The notes beneath the pieces are model-generated. The model did no database searches. It had not been told where the DNA came from and saw only the letters and a program-made list of their open reading frames with translations. A DNA stretch of 64,000 nucleotides. Source: Bacteroidota bacterium. GTDB lineage: Bacteria; Bacteroidota; Bacteroidia; NS11-12g; UBA9320. Shown here piece after piece: positions 4,603 through 29,149 of this stretch. A program made the position numbers and the translations under genes. The stretch covers positions 186,001 to 250,000 of the forward strand of contig JABWCE010000001.1 in NCBI GenBank assembly GCA_013359235.1, written 5' to 3'. Every line of letters begins with the position of its first letter. The stretch's first letter is position 1.

Positions 4603-6042
4603 TTGAAAGTTTTTGAAGCAGCAAAAAATTCTCTAAAATTATCTGTTGTTGGCAGAATTATTAGATTCTTGGGCAATTATCTATTGTCATGGTTATTATT
4701 TCCTGAAGATTATGGAATTCTTGCAATTGCAGTTGCTTCAACAGAAATATTTGGTTTGATAAATCAGGTGGGATTACAAGCTTTTTATATTCAGGACACA
4801 AAAACAGAACCCAAGAAATTATATAGCACTGTTCTAATAATTGATATTATTCTATCATTTTCTATTTTTATAATTATTTCTGCTTTTACATTTGTAAGTT
4901 GGCATAATGGTTTGTCAAATAATATAGCTTTGATTATGGCTCTAATGGGCCTAAATTTAGGATTATCTGGATTATCCAACACACGATTTTCTGATTTTAA
5001 AAAACAATTAGATTTTAAAAATTATTCTAATTCATTAATTTCCTCGGATATACTTTCAACATTATTTAAACTAGTTTTTGCATACATTGGATGGGGTGCT
5101 TCAAGTTTTATTGGAGGTGAATTAATAGGAACTATTACAAAAGTATTAATTTGTTTACCCTTTTTTAAACAAAATTTTTCAATTAAAATGTTTGATAAAA
5201 CATTAATAAAAAAAATATCTTGGTTTGGTAAACACTCTATTATTACTGCACTTGCATCATACATAACAATTAATTTTGATAAATTATACTTATATCGGGT
5301 TACCAATATTGTATTTTTAGGATTTTATAACTTTGCTGTTAGTCAAACTAACTTATTTTTTTCTTTTATTATATCGCCTATTAATGATTTGCTGTTTTCA
5401 ACTTATCCAAAAGTGCTAAATGATTACAAAAAGCTAAATATTGTATTTTCAGTATTTCATTTTTTTGTTAGTATAATTGTTATCCCATTTTATGTTTTTA
5501 TAATCCTTAACTCAAAAGTATTTATAAATTCAATCTATTCAAACCAATGGATTAAATCTAGCCAAATTTTTATAATTTTTTCATTTCAAAGGTTATTTCA
5601 GGCGTTGTGTTTTCCTGCTATGCCTTTGTTAGTATCTAATGGAAGACCTGATATTTCATCTAAATTCAAAATTTTAAAAGCTGCTTTGGTTCTTATTCTA
5701 TCATTTTTAACTTATTTGAGTTCTAAAAATGTTATTTATTTGGTTGTTGCTTTTGCAATTGGAAATATAATTGGAGATTTATCTCAATTTTTCTATTCTA
5801 CAATAATGTATAAAATAAAATTAAAATTTGTAATTTATGACTATTTAAAAATAGTTATTTTGTCTGTATTATTAGCACTTTTTACGCCAATTATTTTTAA
5901 TTTAATTTCAATAAATTTTACAAAAATACGATTAATGAATATAGCAATTATTATTACTTATTCATTTCTATACATTGCTTTAATTTATATATTTTACTAT
6001 AAACATATAAAAAATTGTTTATCAAAAATTAAGAGTATTTAG
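4603..6042 (+). CDS. Wzx-type polysaccharide flippase
   Basis: An integral membrane protein of 479 residues with about 12 to 14 hydrophobic segments. It belongs to the MATE-like polysaccharide exporter superfamily by its N-terminal pattern (RIIRFLGNYLLSWLLFPEDYG, with Pro-Glu-Asp-Tyr-Gly after the first helix). It should flip undecaprenyl-linked repeat units across the inner membrane for Wzy to polymerise. The start is TTG at 4603; no ATG lies in frame upstream or close downstream, and the N-terminal family pattern begins at once. Low sequence conservation is normal for Wzx, so substrate cannot be inferred. Confidence 0.88.
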   Translation: MKVFEAAKNSLKLSVVGRIIRFLGNYLLSWLLFPEDYGILAIAVASTEIFGLINQVGLQAFYIQDTKTEPKKLYSTVLIIDIILSFSIFIIISAFTFVSWHNGLSNNIALIMALMGLNLGLSGLSNTRFSDFKKQLDFKNYSNSLISSDILSTLFKLVFAYIGWGASSFIGGELIGTITKVLICLPFFKQNFSIKMFDKTLIKKISWFGKHSIITALASYITINFDKLYLYRVTNIVFLGFYNFAVSQTNLFFSFIISPINDLLFSTYPKVLNDYKKLNIVFSVFHFFVSIIVIPFYVFIILNSKVFINSIYSNQWIKSSQIFIIFSFQRLFQALCFPAMPLLVSNGRPDISSKFKILKAALVLILSFLTYLSSKNVIYLVVAFAIGNIIGDLSQFFYSTIMYKIKLKFVIYDYLKIVILSVLLALFTPIIFNLISINFTKIRLMNIAIIITYSFLYIALIYIFYYKHIKNCLSKIKSI

Positions 6043-6120: not shown

Positions 6121-7578
6121 ATGAAAAAAAAGAGTATATCTATCATATACCCAAGAGGAGAAACAATTAGTAATTTTTTAACATTACCATTTATAAAAAA
6201 TTTATCAGAAAATTTTGAGATTAACATTGTTGTTTATTCAAAAGAGCACTTAAATCTTTATAAAGATTCGCTGAAACTTATTAATTCTGTTTCTGTAATT
6301 CAACCACGTAAAAAATTAGTTTTAATTGATTTGTGCCATCATTTGCTTGATTTATCACATAATATCTGGATAAACACAAAGGCATCTAATGATAGATTAA
6401 TTATTAAAATGAACCAATCAATAATGATTTTTGATAAAATTAAATCTACATTATTATTGTTTTTTGCAAGAATTTTTGCTAATAAAAAAGGATTATTTTT
6501 TTTAGAAACATTTAACGAATTTGTGAATTACAAGTTAAATTATGAAGATTATATTGAAGACCATTTTCGGCAATATAACCCAACAATTGTATTTAACACA
6601 TCACATATTCATAATTTTAATTCACTAAACTGGATTTATTCAGCAAAGCGAAGAAAAATTAAAACAGCTACCTTTATATTTTCATGGGACAACATAACTT
6701 CACAAGGAAGAATTATACCCAAATACGATTACTTATTTACATGGAATAATGAAACGAAAAATTTAATATCAAAGTTTTATCCCCAAATGTCTTATGATAA
6801 AATTTTCGTAACAGGTACTCCTCAATTTGATACTTATTTTATTAATGATGATAAACCTTTAAATCGTGTAGAATTTTGTAATTTATATGGATTAAATAGC
6901 GAAAAGCCCATTTTCTATTATACAACTGGCATGGCTCATCACATGCCCGGAGAACCAATAATTGTAAAAAATATATTAGAATATTTAGAAAATTTTCCAT
7001 TTGAAAACAGGCCTCAATTATTGTTGAGAATATATCCTAAGGATTTTACAGACAGATTTAAACCACTTTTGGGTTTAAACAATTTATTCATTCAAGATAC
7101 CTTTTGGGAACAAAAAGCATTACTTCCAACTCCTAAGGCTAAATATATTTTGCGTGAATCTCTAAGAAATGTTGATTTAGGAATAAATATAGCTTCTACT
7201 ATTACTTTAGAGTTACTAATGTTTAATAAACCTGTAATTAATATAGCATATACACCTACCTATAACAGGGATATCCGCATAGAAGAAGAGTTATTTATAC
7301 AAGAAAGAAAGATATATACTGAAAAACAACTAAGGTATCTTGATTTTGTTGATAATAAAAAATGGTATTCATTTGAACATTACAAACAAGTGACTGAAAG
7401 TGGTTGCATAGAACTTTGTTATTCTTTCAAAGAACTTCAAAATAAACTTTTTGAATTTAAACAAATTAAGCCGGATAAAAATAAAGTTAAAAACCTTTTT
7501 GATATCAAATTTTCAAACACGTTAGATGGGAAAAGTTATAATAGAATCGCTAGTAAGCTTATTGAAATTGTAAATTAA
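6121..7578 (+). CDS. Putative GT-B-fold glycosyltransferase of surface polysaccharide locus
   Basis: I do not recognise a named family. The 485-residue protein has no membrane segment. Its middle holds FSWDNITSQGRI and later VTGTPQFDTYF, a pattern I associate with GT-B-fold enzymes such as CDP-glycerol or UDP-sugar transferases of capsule loci. A Gly/His-rich segment (TTGMAHHMPGEP) and a C-terminal LGINIASTITLELLMFNKP resemble the nucleotide-binding half of that fold. It is flanked by wzx and an FkbM methyltransferase, so a sugar or polyol-phosphate transferase is the natural guess. It is the one transferase here that is not plainly GT4. Confidence 0.55.
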   Translation: MKKKSISIIYPRGETISNFLTLPFIKNLSENFEINIVVYSKEHLNLYKDSLKLINSVSVIQPRKKLVLIDLCHHLLDLSHNIWINTKASNDRLIIKMNQSIMIFDKIKSTLLLFFARIFANKKGLFFLETFNEFVNYKLNYEDYIEDHFRQYNPTIVFNTSHIHNFNSLNWIYSAKRRKIKTATFIFSWDNITSQGRIIPKYDYLFTWNNETKNLISKFYPQMSYDKIFVTGTPQFDTYFINDDKPLNRVEFCNLYGLNSEKPIFYYTTGMAHHMPGEPIIVKNILEYLENFPFENRPQLLLRIYPKDFTDRFKPLLGLNNLFIQDTFWEQKALLPTPKAKYILRESLRNVDLGINIASTITLELLMFNKPVINIAYTPTYNRDIRIEEELFIQERKIYTEKQLRYLDFVDNKKWYSFEHYKQVTESGCIELCYSFKELQNKLFEFKQIKPDKNKVKNLFDIKFSNTLDGKSYNRIASKLIEIVN

Positions 7579-7591
7579 TTTAGTATTAAAT

Positions 7592-8365
7592 ATGTTAATA
7601 AATTTATTAAAATCGAATCAAGTTTTATATTTAAAAATTTTAGATTCATCATTATTTAACTTCATTTCAAAACTTAGAAATGGTACTATATATCAAATAA
7701 GAAATAAAGTTTTTAATTTTTATAAAGAAATTCTTAAAGATTACCCAAATGGCAAAGTGGTAGATATAGGTGCAAGCATTGGAAACCTATCCTATTTCTT
7801 TTTAAAAATGGGGTATAAAGTACTATCAATTGAAGGTAGTCCTAAAAGGTTCAATATTTTAACTAAAAGATTCAAATACTCTAAAAATTTTAATTCACTT
7901 AATTTAATAATTTCAGACAAAAAAGGTGATATTGATTTTTTTGAAAATTTAAATAATCCTGGACTCAGTTCTATTGATAAAAAGTGGAAAGACATTACTG
8001 AAACCAATTTTAATTATGTGAATAAAATAATAACCTTGACTTCTGATACTTTGGACAATATTCTCAAACCACTTAATAATGTAGTTTATTTGAAAATTGA
8101 TGTTGAAGGTGCAGAAGAACTTGTTTTGAAAACATTAAATATACCAGTACCTATTATAAGTATAGAGTCAAATTTACCATATTACTTTGTTGAAACCAAA
8201 AGATGTCTTGAAAAGTTTAATACATTGAGTGAAAATTATAAATACAATTATGCTATTAACTATAAACTGGTAGATAATAATTGGATGACCTATAATGAAA
8301 TAATAGAAAAGATTTCACACATAAATATTTCTATAGACATATTTGCAAGAATTCCTAAATCATAA
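7592..8365 (+). CDS. FkbM-family SAM-dependent methyltransferase
   Basis: Predicted O-methyltransferase for a sugar of the repeat unit. The SAM-binding motif VDIGASIGN starts near residue 57, followed by an acidic residue in LSIEGSP, and the FkbM hallmark LKIDVEGAEE lies near residues 168-176. The length of 257 residues is typical. The next gene also carries a methyltransferase domain, so two separate methylations are possible. Substrate is unknown. Confidence 0.85.
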   Translation: MLINLLKSNQVLYLKILDSSLFNFISKLRNGTIYQIRNKVFNFYKEILKDYPNGKVVDIGASIGNLSYFFLKMGYKVLSIEGSPKRFNILTKRFKYSKNFNSLNLIISDKKGDIDFFENLNNPGLSSIDKKWKDITETNFNYVNKIITLTSDTLDNILKPLNNVVYLKIDVEGAEELVLKTLNIPVPIISIESNLPYYFVETKRCLEKFNTLSENYKYNYAINYKLVDNNWMTYNEIIEKISHINISIDIFARIPKS

Positions 8366-8371
8366 AAAAAA

Positions 8372-10132
8372 ATGAAAAATTTATTTCGTTTATTTAAATA
8401 TATTTTTAAAAGAGAACCATCCTTTTTAACAGATTCAATTTTTGAATTTTATTTACCGCATTGGATAAACAGAAAAACAACATTTTTATTAAAAAACAAA
8501 AAAACTTTATTGTACGTTGGGATTATTTTATTTGCATTCATTTTATTAATTTTATTAACTTTTTCTATCAAAATTGCTTTATTTTTCTTTATTCTTATTA
8601 ATGTGTTATTATTTCTATTTTTTAATTATATTGGACTCACAGTACTTATAGATAAGAACAAGGTTAATGAGAAAAAATTAACAGAATTAATTAAAAATCA
8701 AAAAAGTATTTTTATAGATTATGAGACATATTTAAATAATAATAATGCAACTTTATCAAACATAAAAAAATCTTACAAAAAAGACGATGAATTAGTTATT
8801 GGACAATTTGACACAGATGGTAGAGTTTATTCAGAGTACGGTATTTTGCCTTTTCAAATTATGGTTTCAAAAAATGAATTTGTTAAACGGTCACGTTACA
8901 AAATGTCCATAGTTATTAAAGAAGGAGTAGTTTTAGTTAAAAAAGAGTTCAATACAAAAAGAAAAGCATTTTTTAACGAACTTTTTTCAGTATTAACATT
9001 GCCAAATGAAATATTAAAACCTCATATTCATTCTTTTGATTTAAAGAATTTAATAATTTATAAATCTTTAATTTTGGGCGATACTCTTAGAAATGTAATT
9101 GTTAAAAATGGAGGTAAAATACTGAATGCAGATACAGATACAGAATTTAAAAATTCAAGTTTAACTAATACTCAAAAAATAAATTTAATACTAAAAAGAG
9201 GCACAGAAATAATTAAAAATATTATAAATGAAAACCAATATTTAAAATTTGAAGAAGAAATTAAAAAAATACATCATGCAGGCATAACAAATTTAAGTTT
9301 AACATTTGGGAATATTATACTTGAAGAAAATACAAAAAATTTAATAATGATTGATTATGAATCAACCTTACTTCATAAAAAAAGAACATTATTCTTTCAT
9401 TATTGTAAAAATAATGATTTGCTTAAGTATAATAATATTTTTTCACGCAACACTTTGGTAGAATCAGTTGCTCAAGAATTAATAAAAAGAGATTCCTTAA
9501 AATTTTCTTCGTTTTATGCCTCTATTAATTTTGGGAATGGCTTTTTTATTGGACCTTTTTGGGATAAAGAATCTGGTATCGGAAGATGGAATTTTTTCAA
9601 TAAGAATGTTTTACCAAAAATAGTATATGGAAAAAGGATATTAGACATGGGAACAAATAATTCATATTTGTCACTTCTTTTGATTAAGGAAGGGATGGCA
9701 AAGGAAGTTGTTTGCGTAGAACGTGACCCTATTTTTATAGAAAGAGCCAATTTAGTAAAAAAGATTTTCAATTGGCGAGATGATGTTGATTATCCAATTA
9801 GATTAATTGAAGGAGATATGTTTGACTTTACAAATGGGAAATATGGTTATGATTATGACATCATTACATTTTTCTGTTCGATATATTATTTAGAAGAAGA
9901 AAATATTAGAAAATTATTAAAATATTCAGCATTCAAAATTCCAGAAATAATTATTCAGAGTAATGACGGAACAAGAAAAGATGCCCCAGAAAACAAAAGT
10001 TATAAATCCTCTACTAATTTTCTTATTGAAACATTAAAAAATACAGGCTTTGAAATTATAAAAACTTATTATGGGAGAGGGTTTTCGAGACCCATTATAC
10101 ATGCAAGAAGTAAAGTTTATTTTAAAGACTAA
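8372..10132 (+). CDS. Membrane-anchored kinase-like domain fused to a methyltransferase
   Basis: A 586-residue fusion. Residues about 44-95 are hydrophobic and likely form two membrane segments. Residues about 150-345 resemble the lipopolysaccharide-kinase/RIO-like branch of the protein kinase fold: VLVKKEF could hold the ATP-contacting lysine, IHHAGITNLSLTFGNII (residues about 299-315) aligns with the catalytic loop, and MIDYES (about 326-331) with the DFG-like metal site. The usual catalytic Asp position reads Ser. Residues about 415-586 form a class I methyltransferase (RILDMGTNNSYLSLLL, then VERD). The pairing recalls WbdD of E. coli O9a, a chain-terminating methyltransferase-kinase, but with domains in opposite order. 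Function is inferred only. Confidence 0.6.
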   Translation: MKNLFRLFKYIFKREPSFLTDSIFEFYLPHWINRKTTFLLKNKKTLLYVGIILFAFILLILLTFSIKIALFFFILINVLLFLFFNYIGLTVLIDKNKVNEKKLTELIKNQKSIFIDYETYLNNNNATLSNIKKSYKKDDELVIGQFDTDGRVYSEYGILPFQIMVSKNEFVKRSRYKMSIVIKEGVVLVKKEFNTKRKAFFNELFSVLTLPNEILKPHIHSFDLKNLIIYKSLILGDTLRNVIVKNGGKILNADTDTEFKNSSLTNTQKINLILKRGTEIIKNIINENQYLKFEEEIKKIHHAGITNLSLTFGNIILEENTKNLIMIDYESTLLHKKRTLFFHYCKNNDLLKYNNIFSRNTLVESVAQELIKRDSLKFSSFYASINFGNGFFIGPFWDKESGIGRWNFFNKNVLPKIVYGKRILDMGTNNSYLSLLLIKEGMAKEVVCVERDPIFIERANLVKKIFNWRDDVDYPIRLIEGDMFDFTNGKYGYDYDIITFFCSIYYLEEENIRKLLKYSAFKIPEIIIQSNDGTRKDAPENKSYKSSTNFLIETLKNTGFEIIKTYYGRGFSRPIIHARSKVYFKD

Positions 10133-12621: not shown

Positions 12622-13980
12622 TTGAGTAGACGATTAAAAATAATGTGGATTTTAATGCATATCTCATTAGGAGTTATTTATGCTTTCTTCAATCCAATTA
12701 CAATATTTTTAGAATTGATTGCTTTTATTTTAGGACTATATTTTGCTGTTACTAAAGGAAATTCGCAAATTCAATTTATGCAATGTTTAGTTTATCTTGT
12801 AAGTATTGAAATAGCCACACGATCACAAGATATTTTACCTCATGAATTCGTCAAATACGGTATTTCAATTTTGATGATTGTTTACTTACTTGTAAATTCT
12901 AAAGAATTAAAAACTGAAAAATATACGTGGCTGGCATTATTATACTTTTTTTTATTATTGCCTTCACTTCTAATAGGAGAATACGACGAGTTAGAAAAAC
13001 CTATTAATGTAATTTCATTTTCGTTATCAGGTCCCATATCATTAGCTGTTTCATGTTCTTTTTTTTCACGTTATACTTTGACAATAAATAATTTATTAAG
13101 AGTTTTATCCTTTGCATTATATCCAATTATATTATCTCTATTATATATTATTATAAAAGCACCTAATATTAAAGATATAGAATGGGCATTGGGGGCTAAT
13201 TTTGAATCATCTGCACACATGACTGGACCCAATCAAATTAGTTCAATTTTCGGATTGGGATTATTTATTTTATTTTTTACAATATACAATAAATTTTACT
13301 TTAGTGGATACAGATTTATTGATATATTATTTTTTGGCATTCTTCTTTTTAGAACAATTTTACTTTTTTCGAGAGGAGGTTTAATAAGTGGATTTTTAGC
13401 AATAATTACATTATACATATTTGATATACTTTTAAAAAGTAAAAATGCATCTGAAAAATTTAATAAAATTTTTCAAGTTATAATTTTTATTGTTTTATCT
13501 ATACTTTTATTTAACATCGTTAACGACATAACAAATGGCACTTTGTATAAAAGATATCGTGGAGAAAAAGCAAATACCGAAATTACAGGAGAAATAGATT
13601 ATTTTTCTAATAGAGAGCAAATTATAGATTCTGATATTAATATTTTTTTACAAAATCCTATATTTGGCATTGGACCTGGCTTAGGTAAACACTACAGAGA
13701 TAAATATTTGGGGTGGGGAGCATCAGCACATACCGAACTTACAAGGTTGCTGGCCGAACATGGTTTATTAGGAATTTTAGCTGCCATTATTATAATTTAT
13801 TTATCAATTGTTTCAATAAAAAAAAATAAAAAAATAGGAATTCCCATAGTTGCTTCATTAATCGTATTAAGTATATCTACATCGTTCCACGCAGCAATGA
13901 GGTTAGCTATGGTTGGTTTTATTTTTGGTTTAAGCCAATTAACCATAAAATCAAATTCAAATAAAAAAAACTATGTGTAA
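12622..13980 (+). CDS. Wzy-type O-antigen polymerase / O-antigen ligase family
   Basis: A polytopic membrane protein of 452 residues with about 10 to 12 hydrophobic segments. The large loop contains SRGGLISG and then NPIFGIGPG...HTELTRLLAEHGLLG, the pattern of the Wzy_C/O-antigen ligase domain with its conserved Arg and His residues. It should polymerise flipped repeat units in the periplasm. The frame opens with TTG at 12622; an ATG eight codons inside (12643) is a reasonable alternative start. The end overlaps the following gene by eight bases. Confidence 0.87.
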   Translation: MSRRLKIMWILMHISLGVIYAFFNPITIFLELIAFILGLYFAVTKGNSQIQFMQCLVYLVSIEIATRSQDILPHEFVKYGISILMIVYLLVNSKELKTEKYTWLALLYFFLLLPSLLIGEYDELEKPINVISFSLSGPISLAVSCSFFSRYTLTINNLLRVLSFALYPIILSLLYIIIKAPNIKDIEWALGANFESSAHMTGPNQISSIFGLGLFILFFTIYNKFYFSGYRFIDILFFGILLFRTILLFSRGGLISGFLAIITLYIFDILLKSKNASEKFNKIFQVIIFIVLSILLFNIVNDITNGTLYKRYRGEKANTEITGEIDYFSNREQIIDSDINIFLQNPIFGIGPGLGKHYRDKYLGWGASAHTELTRLLAEHGLLGILAAIIIIYLSIVSIKKNKKIGIPIVASLIVLSISTSFHAAMRLAMVGFIFGLSQLTIKSNSNKKNYV

Positions 13981-28561: not shown

Positions 28562-29149
28562 ATGAAAGTTGAAGAACCCGATTTTGAGTACGGAATTTAT
28601 TCTTATGCCGATTATCTGAAATGGACTTTAGATGAACAAGTAGAAATAATAAAGGGTAAAATTTTTAAGATGAGTCCGGCACCTAAAAGGATTCATCAAA
28701 AAATTTCAATAAACATTGCAAGCAATTTATACAATTTTTTAAAAGGCAAAAAATGTCAGGTTTACGATGCTCCATTTGATGTAAGACTCCCTGTGAAATC
28801 AAACAAAAACGAAGATATTTTCACGGTTGTACAACCTGATATTTGTGTAATTTGTGACCCTTCAAAACTCGATGAAGCTGGCTGTATTGGTGCTCCAGAT
28901 ATTGTTATTGAAATACTTTCGAAAGGCAATAACAAAAAAGAACTTCAAGTAAAATATGAAGTATATGAAGAATCAGGAATTAAAGAATACTGGATAATCC
29001 ACCCCGACGAGCAAACTGTTTTGATTTATAAATTAGTTAATGGGAAATATGAGCCATCAAGGCTTTTAACCAAAGGCGACACAATAACAACATCAATTTT
29101 GGAAGGTTTTGTTTTAGACTTAGAAAGCGTATTTGAAGATGAAGGCTGA
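28562..29149 (+). CDS. Uma2-family (DUF820) PD-(D/E)XK nuclease-like protein
   Basis: 195 residues with the Uma2/DUF820 pattern: YADYLKWT, EIIKGKIFKMSPAP, VVQPDICVICD and GAPDIVIEILSKG...K, where Asp, Glu and Lys form the restriction-endonuclease-like core. The biological role of this widespread family is poorly known. It sits 21 bases after the dehydratase gene and seven before the initiating transferase, so it is probably co-transcribed with the polysaccharide genes, though nothing ties it to sugar chemistry. Confidence 0.85.
   Translation: MKVEEPDFEYGIYSYADYLKWTLDEQVEIIKGKIFKMSPAPKRIHQKISINIASNLYNFLKGKKCQVYDAPFDVRLPVKSNKNEDIFTVVQPDICVICDPSKLDEAGCIGAPDIVIEILSKGNNKKELQVKYEVYEESGIKEYWIIHPDEQTVLIYKLVNGKYEPSRLLTKGDTITTSILEGFVLDLESVFEDEG

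Follow-up and report, generated by a model that had tools for sequence, protein, structure and literature searches.

The gene at 8372-10132 of the window (the whole stretch of DNA analysed, 64,000 nt) encodes a 586-aa protein in which a transmembrane hairpin, a kinase fold and a methyltransferase follow each other in this order. The gene lies in a Wzx/Wzy locus, and Ser309 stands at the position of the catalytic Asp of active kinases. The best explanation, with a probability of roughly 0.52, is a glycan methyltransferase anchored in the membrane, with a kinase fold that would be a pseudokinase scaffold derived from an active kinase-methyltransferase.

Protein architecture

The ORF starts with ATG, has no internal stop, and is present in a single copy in its own genome. 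The only close homologue was found in a sister species of the same genus, Bacteroidia bacterium isolate SJ44, with 71% identity over 583 residues. The main parts of the gene are the following:

8372..10132, + strand: whole gene of the transmembrane/kinase-fold/methyltransferase protein; 586 aa, single ORF, full-length homologue (71%) in the sister species
8498..8650, + strand: transmembrane hairpin, residues about 43-93 (Kyte-Doolittle and AF2 helices)
8786..9496, + strand: kinase-fold domain, residues about 139-375 (AF2 kinase-only model, Foldseek, VIA-align, five-relative profile with 45 bits)
9497..10129, + strand: class I SAM-methyltransferase domain, residues 376-586 (Pfam, NCBIfam, family profile)
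9635-9664, + strand: methyltransferase motif I RILDMGTNNS (sequence)

Kyte-Doolittle windows exceed 1.6 unbroken across residues 42-94, and the AF2 model has helices at 43-64 and 66-93. Pfam alone returned for the whole protein a weak methyltransferase match only, at residues 420-508. Matches of the methyltransferase part to Pfam Methyltransf_31 (1.8e-4) and NCBIfam TIGR04290 (1.1e-6) are below the curated cut-offs; the relative L003 clears the curated cut-off of Methyltransf_25, and the family profile of the domain matches solved methyltransferases. Motif I and the profile match together place the domain among class I SAM-methyltransferases. The order of domains, predicted from the sequence to be opposite to that of WbdD, was borne out by AF2 models and Pfam.

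Kinase fold

A kinase fold had been proposed for residues 150-345, and a bilobal one is present there according to Foldseek and VIA-align. Only one of the five kinase-only AF2 models (residues 122-376, seven input sequences) attained pLDDT 77 and pTM 0.70, with the others at 51-56. In Foldseek against PDB, archaeal Bud32 was recognized as its best match (E 9.4e-7), with human PRPK at best E 5.5e-6; 168 chains matched at E<=0.001, and among the matches listed all are kinase-fold proteins. The best VIA-align Z was 12.4 (CDKL1), and PRPK (11.6), Rio1 (11.5) and Rio2 are all at 11 to 12, over about 140 residues. The full-length AF2 model, built separately, led to the same families, with a best Foldseek E of 2.3e-4 to PRPK, although it is weak (pLDDT 56) and its methyltransferase part is poorly modelled. 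WbdD was not among the structural matches listed, which is no argument against kinship.

Sequence similarity to Bud32 and KdkA is weak and consists of NCBIfam profile matches at residues 276-335 (E 0.014-0.03), which cover the catalytic loop as originally predicted. A four-sequence profile of the kinase domain matches Pim-1 at 5.4e-5. By Foldseek, Bud32/PRPK is the closest kinase fold to the domain; Bud32/PRPK, RIO and KdkA have the catalytic Asp, whereas the window protein has Ser. Both the kinase fold and the replacement by Ser are almost certain.

Catalytic loop and kept kinase residues

The following positions of the kinase domain were located in an alignment of seven members:

8798..8812, + strand: IGQFD (residues 143-147), motif opening the N-lobe; its Gly and Phe are in 7/7 members, its Asp in 6/7
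8942..8944, + strand: beta3 Lys191, kept; invariant 7/7
8978..8980, + strand: alphaC Glu203, kept; invariant 7/7
9290..9298, + strand: Asn307-Leu308-Ser309 (AAT TTA AGT), at the site of HGD/HRD; all nine bases shared with the sister, Asp in five relatives
9311..9313, + strand: Asn314, kept; metal-binding Asn that follows the catalytic loop, invariant 7/7, equivalent of WbdD N356 by +5 spacing
9353..9355, + strand: Asp328, kept; metal-binding Asp of DFG type, within MIDYES, invariant 7/7

The catalytic loop, HHAGITNLSLTFGNIIL, spans residues 301-317. A profile was built from five Asp-bearing relatives only, the window protein and its sister being left out and then aligned to it. The profile segment GiiflDlkgrNlil pairs gap-free with GITNLSLTFGNIIL (45 bits for the window protein). 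Five residues ahead of the conserved Asn, all five relatives have Asp (IYD in L003, FID in L006, FND in L011 and L033, FLD in L035), and the window protein and its sister have Ser. The Pim-1 counterpart of the loop is GVLHRDIKDENILI, and N307-L308-S309 fall at the Pim-1 HRD. The Asp-only profile, the Pim-1 profile and the family alignment thus agree on Ser309 at the place of the catalytic Asp. Between H301 and N314 no residue is acidic, which leaves no other Asp to fill this position. An alternative alignment of the loop was rejected for this reason and because of the three concordant alignments.

The HGD-like site had been described as reading Asn-Leu-Ser. The change from Asp to Ser stands, but the loss of His and Gly is not distinctive, as both are also missing from the Asp-bearing relatives; the sole meaningful change is therefore Asp to Ser. 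The later Asp (IDYES) is kept as predicted, and with Lys191, Glu203, Asn314 and Asp328 all in place the kinase-fold domain probably still binds Mg-ATP.

Sister species and selection

HHAGITNLSLTFGNII is identical in the sister protein, as is the catalytic loop over 16 residues, so that Asn-Leu-Ser is conserved in the only close homologue. Between the two species, dN and dS are 0.16 and 1.16 in the kinase domain (dN/dS about 0.14), 0.11 and 1.63 in the methyltransferase domain, and 0.33 and 1.05 in the N-terminal transmembrane part, all approximate only, with dS near or above 1. Judged from the low dN/dS and the identical loop, the kinase domain is maintained by selection, and Asn-Leu-Ser is taken to be fixed and selected. 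Decay or sequencing error was rejected as the main account of the substitution, since AAT-TTA-AGT occurs in both species, whose genomes were assembled separately; the low dN/dS and the need for at least two base changes to turn an Asp codon (GAT or GAC) into AGT for Ser also disfavour it.

Locus

The gene order is Wzc-like kinase, TviB-like dehydrogenase, TviC-like epimerase, epimerase, Wzx, 485-aa protein, FkbM, the 586-aa protein, two GT4, Wzy and GT4, then on to AsnB, PseF-like and NeuB. Neighbours of the gene are:

4603..6042, + strand: Wzx-type flippase of the conserved block (Pfam Polysacc_synt_3, 8e-38); 72% in the sister, same order
6121..7578, + strand: 485-aa protein between Wzx and FkbM, without Pfam or NCBIfam match; 72% in the sister
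7592..8365, + strand: FkbM-type methyltransferase directly upstream of the 586-aa gene (Pfam 2e-11); 74% in the sister
12622..13980, + strand: Wzy-type polymerase or ligase (Pfam Wzy_C, 7.8e-12); 68% in the sister

Pfam matches of the neighbours (Polysacc_synt_3 and Wzy_C) support the Wzx/Wzy setting that had been proposed. Nine genes are collinear in the two species at 68-75% (epimerase-Wzx-unknown-FkbM-586-aa protein-GT-GT-Wzy-GT), beginning with the second epimerase and ending with the GT that follows Wzy; the sister has one extra acyltransferase. Searches of the whole genome gave no match to ABC2_membrane (PF01061), a search positive in 14/14 control genomes, and none to Wzt_C (PF14524). 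By eye, the 485-aa protein may be a GT-B glycosyltransferase.

Relatives and distribution

The search for the same fusion in other Bacteroidota, which had been suggested with the original prediction, brought one more among 395 genomes across the phylum (genome G452, a distant lineage of the same phylum; E 1.7e-44). It is 25% identical to the window protein in a 463-residue alignment that takes in the kinase and the methyltransferase, and has the catalytic Asp. These two domains (L003) make up the C-terminal half of a 990-aa ORF (L026:9535-12507); the N-terminal half is formed by a Wzx-type flippase, which matches Polysacc_synt_3 above its cut-off. Standalone Asp-bearing members of 247-252 aa occur in one other genus (g118), where they adjoin sugar transferase, PglD-like acetyltransferase and ATP-grasp genes. 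Weak matches of the kinase profile in the phylum span little more than the catalytic loop, and L012 and L034 are ordinary kinases.

Wider searches of the class, the order and the relatives of matches gave no further fusion, and no relatives were found in plasmids, phages and viral contigs. A scan of one genome per species over 84,980 species returned the sister only; it used two exact peptide patterns, which distant relatives would escape. In the tree, the window protein and its sister group with L003, apart from the standalone kinases, although it is computed from seven short sequences with long branches. This topology is consistent with an Asp that turned into Ser along the branch leading to the window genus. 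A fusion of Wzx, kinase and methyltransferase was not found in the literature searched.

Comparison with known systems

WbdD of E. coli O9a is a kinase-methyltransferase chain terminator of an ABC-exporter pathway, with catalytic D351, N356 and DFG Asp D369 (PMC3482155). It is arranged as methyltransferase (1-210), kinase (211-459) and coiled coil (460-708). In vitro, the kinase is inactive after D351A or D351E, and in vivo O-polysaccharide is lost with D351A (PMC3482155). By spacing, S309, N314 and D328 are equivalents of D351, N356 and D369, respectively. Both are membrane-associated proteins from surface-glycan loci combining a eukaryotic-type kinase fold with a methyltransferase, but WbdD has the order methyltransferase-kinase-coiled coil, an essential Asp and an ABC exporter, and the window protein the order transmembrane-kinase-methyltransferase, Ser and a Wzx/Wzy locus. 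In K. pneumoniae O7, the N-terminal methyltransferase-kinase of ORF6 produces chains ending in methyl-phosphate, and its D441A mutant is dead (PMC11231755). Pairs of methyltransferase and kinase thus arise more than once; that of ORF6 differs from the window protein in having an AmiN-like kinase with catalytic D441, the methyltransferase first and an ABC-exporter system (PMC11231755).

MviN is a MurJ-type lipid flippase. In M. tuberculosis it is a peptidoglycan-synthesis membrane protein with a pseudokinase domain (PMC12599244), and as such a parallel to the Wzx-kinase-methyltransferase protein of the distant lineage. Its pseudokinase differs in belonging to the actinobacterial ActPs3 type, with all motifs degraded, no ATP binding and no methyltransferase (PMC12599244). 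Bacterial pseudokinase families named in the same paper include ActPs, GLW, CP1, DLHK and others, and neither methyltransferase nor polysaccharide is mentioned there (PMC12599244).

Proposed function and alternatives

Inactivity cannot be proved from sequence, since weak or altered chemistry is retained by some kinase-fold proteins that lack the catalytic Asp. A bifunctional kinase-methyltransferase that is still active with altered chemistry is conceivable, if unlikely. It would phosphorylate and then methylate the glycan, giving a methyl-phosphate within the repeat unit; phosphorylation would be slow, or the substrate (e.g. uronic acid carboxylate) would be the base. Such activity agrees with Lys191, Glu203, Asn314 and Asp328 being kept and constrained, with the fusion retained in both lineages and with the TviB/TviC-like uronic-acid genes of the locus, but WbdD depends on the corresponding Asp (D351A and D351E dead), D441A of the K. 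pneumoniae O7 terminator is dead as well, and no acidic residue is near Ser309. It is rather improbable that the methyltransferase alone is of importance and the kinase domain a remnant in decay: the lost catalytic residue and the methyltransferase-only WbdD counterpart functional in E. coli O8 (PMC3482155) speak for it, and the dN/dS of about 0.14 and the loop identical over 16 residues between species against it.

Transfer of AMP instead of phosphate after the loss of Asp, as by the AMPylating pseudokinase SelO, would also fit kept ATP- and metal-binding residues without a catalytic Asp; with no SelO sequence or fold match among the matches listed and no obvious target, it is very unlikely. 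About as unlikely is a chain terminator of WbdD type, capping the non-reducing end and setting chain length. The same two activities are, by domain type, in one protein, but the domain order is reversed, a transmembrane hairpin is present and the long C-terminal coiled coil absent, the catalytic Asp is missing, Wzx/Wzy genes adjoin, and neither ABC2_membrane nor Wzt_C has a match genome-wide. WbdD-type capping was rejected on domain order, active site and missing exporter genes. Among the three options offered originally (pseudokinase scaffold, kinase with altered chemistry, new capping enzyme), the scaffold is best supported, and a WbdD-like capping enzyme is not supported, with the ABC exporter and Wzt carbohydrate-binding domain undetected genome-wide and the essential D351 of WbdD being Ser309 here.

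For the pseudokinase scaffold, the following course is proposed. In an ancestor, an active kinase joined to a methyltransferase would have been held beside the Wzx flippase. In the distant relative it is the C-terminal part of the flippase polypeptide; in the window protein it has its own transmembrane hairpin, and the gene lies three downstream of wzx. In the window lineage, with Asp changed to Ser at position 309, phosphotransfer was probably lost. The Mg-ATP-binding residues and the methyltransferase were kept under selection, and the module is therefore most likely a nucleotide- or glycan-binding scaffold. Close to Wzx, on the inner side of the membrane, it would place the methyltransferase onto the lipid-linked repeat unit. 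The relation to Wzx is suggested by one fusion and the gene order in two related species. As the methyltransferase core is common to the Asp-bearing relative, the substrate may still be a phosphate.

Known kinase-methyltransferase pairs of surface-glycan assembly belong to ABC-exporter systems and cap chains. A pair in a Wzx/Wzy locus, and inside a flippase in a relative, suggests a different role, in which the repeat unit would be modified or licensed when it is flipped. It is a speculative and rather unlikely extension that this is the first flippase-associated kinase-methyltransferase module, in one lineage of which the kinase, turned into an ATP-binding pseudokinase or a nucleotidyl transferase, would gate methylation and flipping of the lipid-linked repeat unit. 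The Asp-bearing and Ser-bearing forms lend themselves to a natural comparison of the role left to a kinase fold after loss of phosphotransfer. They bear on the question of Hagelueken et al. why kinase and methyltransferase are used where a methyltransferase alone suffices (PMC3482155).

Other genes in the loci

In the polysaccharide locus of the window, a gene for a Uma2-type putative endonuclease (28562-29146) lies between a Polysacc_synt_2 gene and an initiating sugar transferase. Genome G604 carries two nearby diverged standalone kinases (L035:1230-1973 and L033:1402-2160) with a DUF218-like gene between them. The polysaccharide locus with the 990-aa ORF also encodes a 353-aa protein (L026:14323-15384) with an HPr-kinase-like P-loop (PGTGKTT) and no Pfam match.
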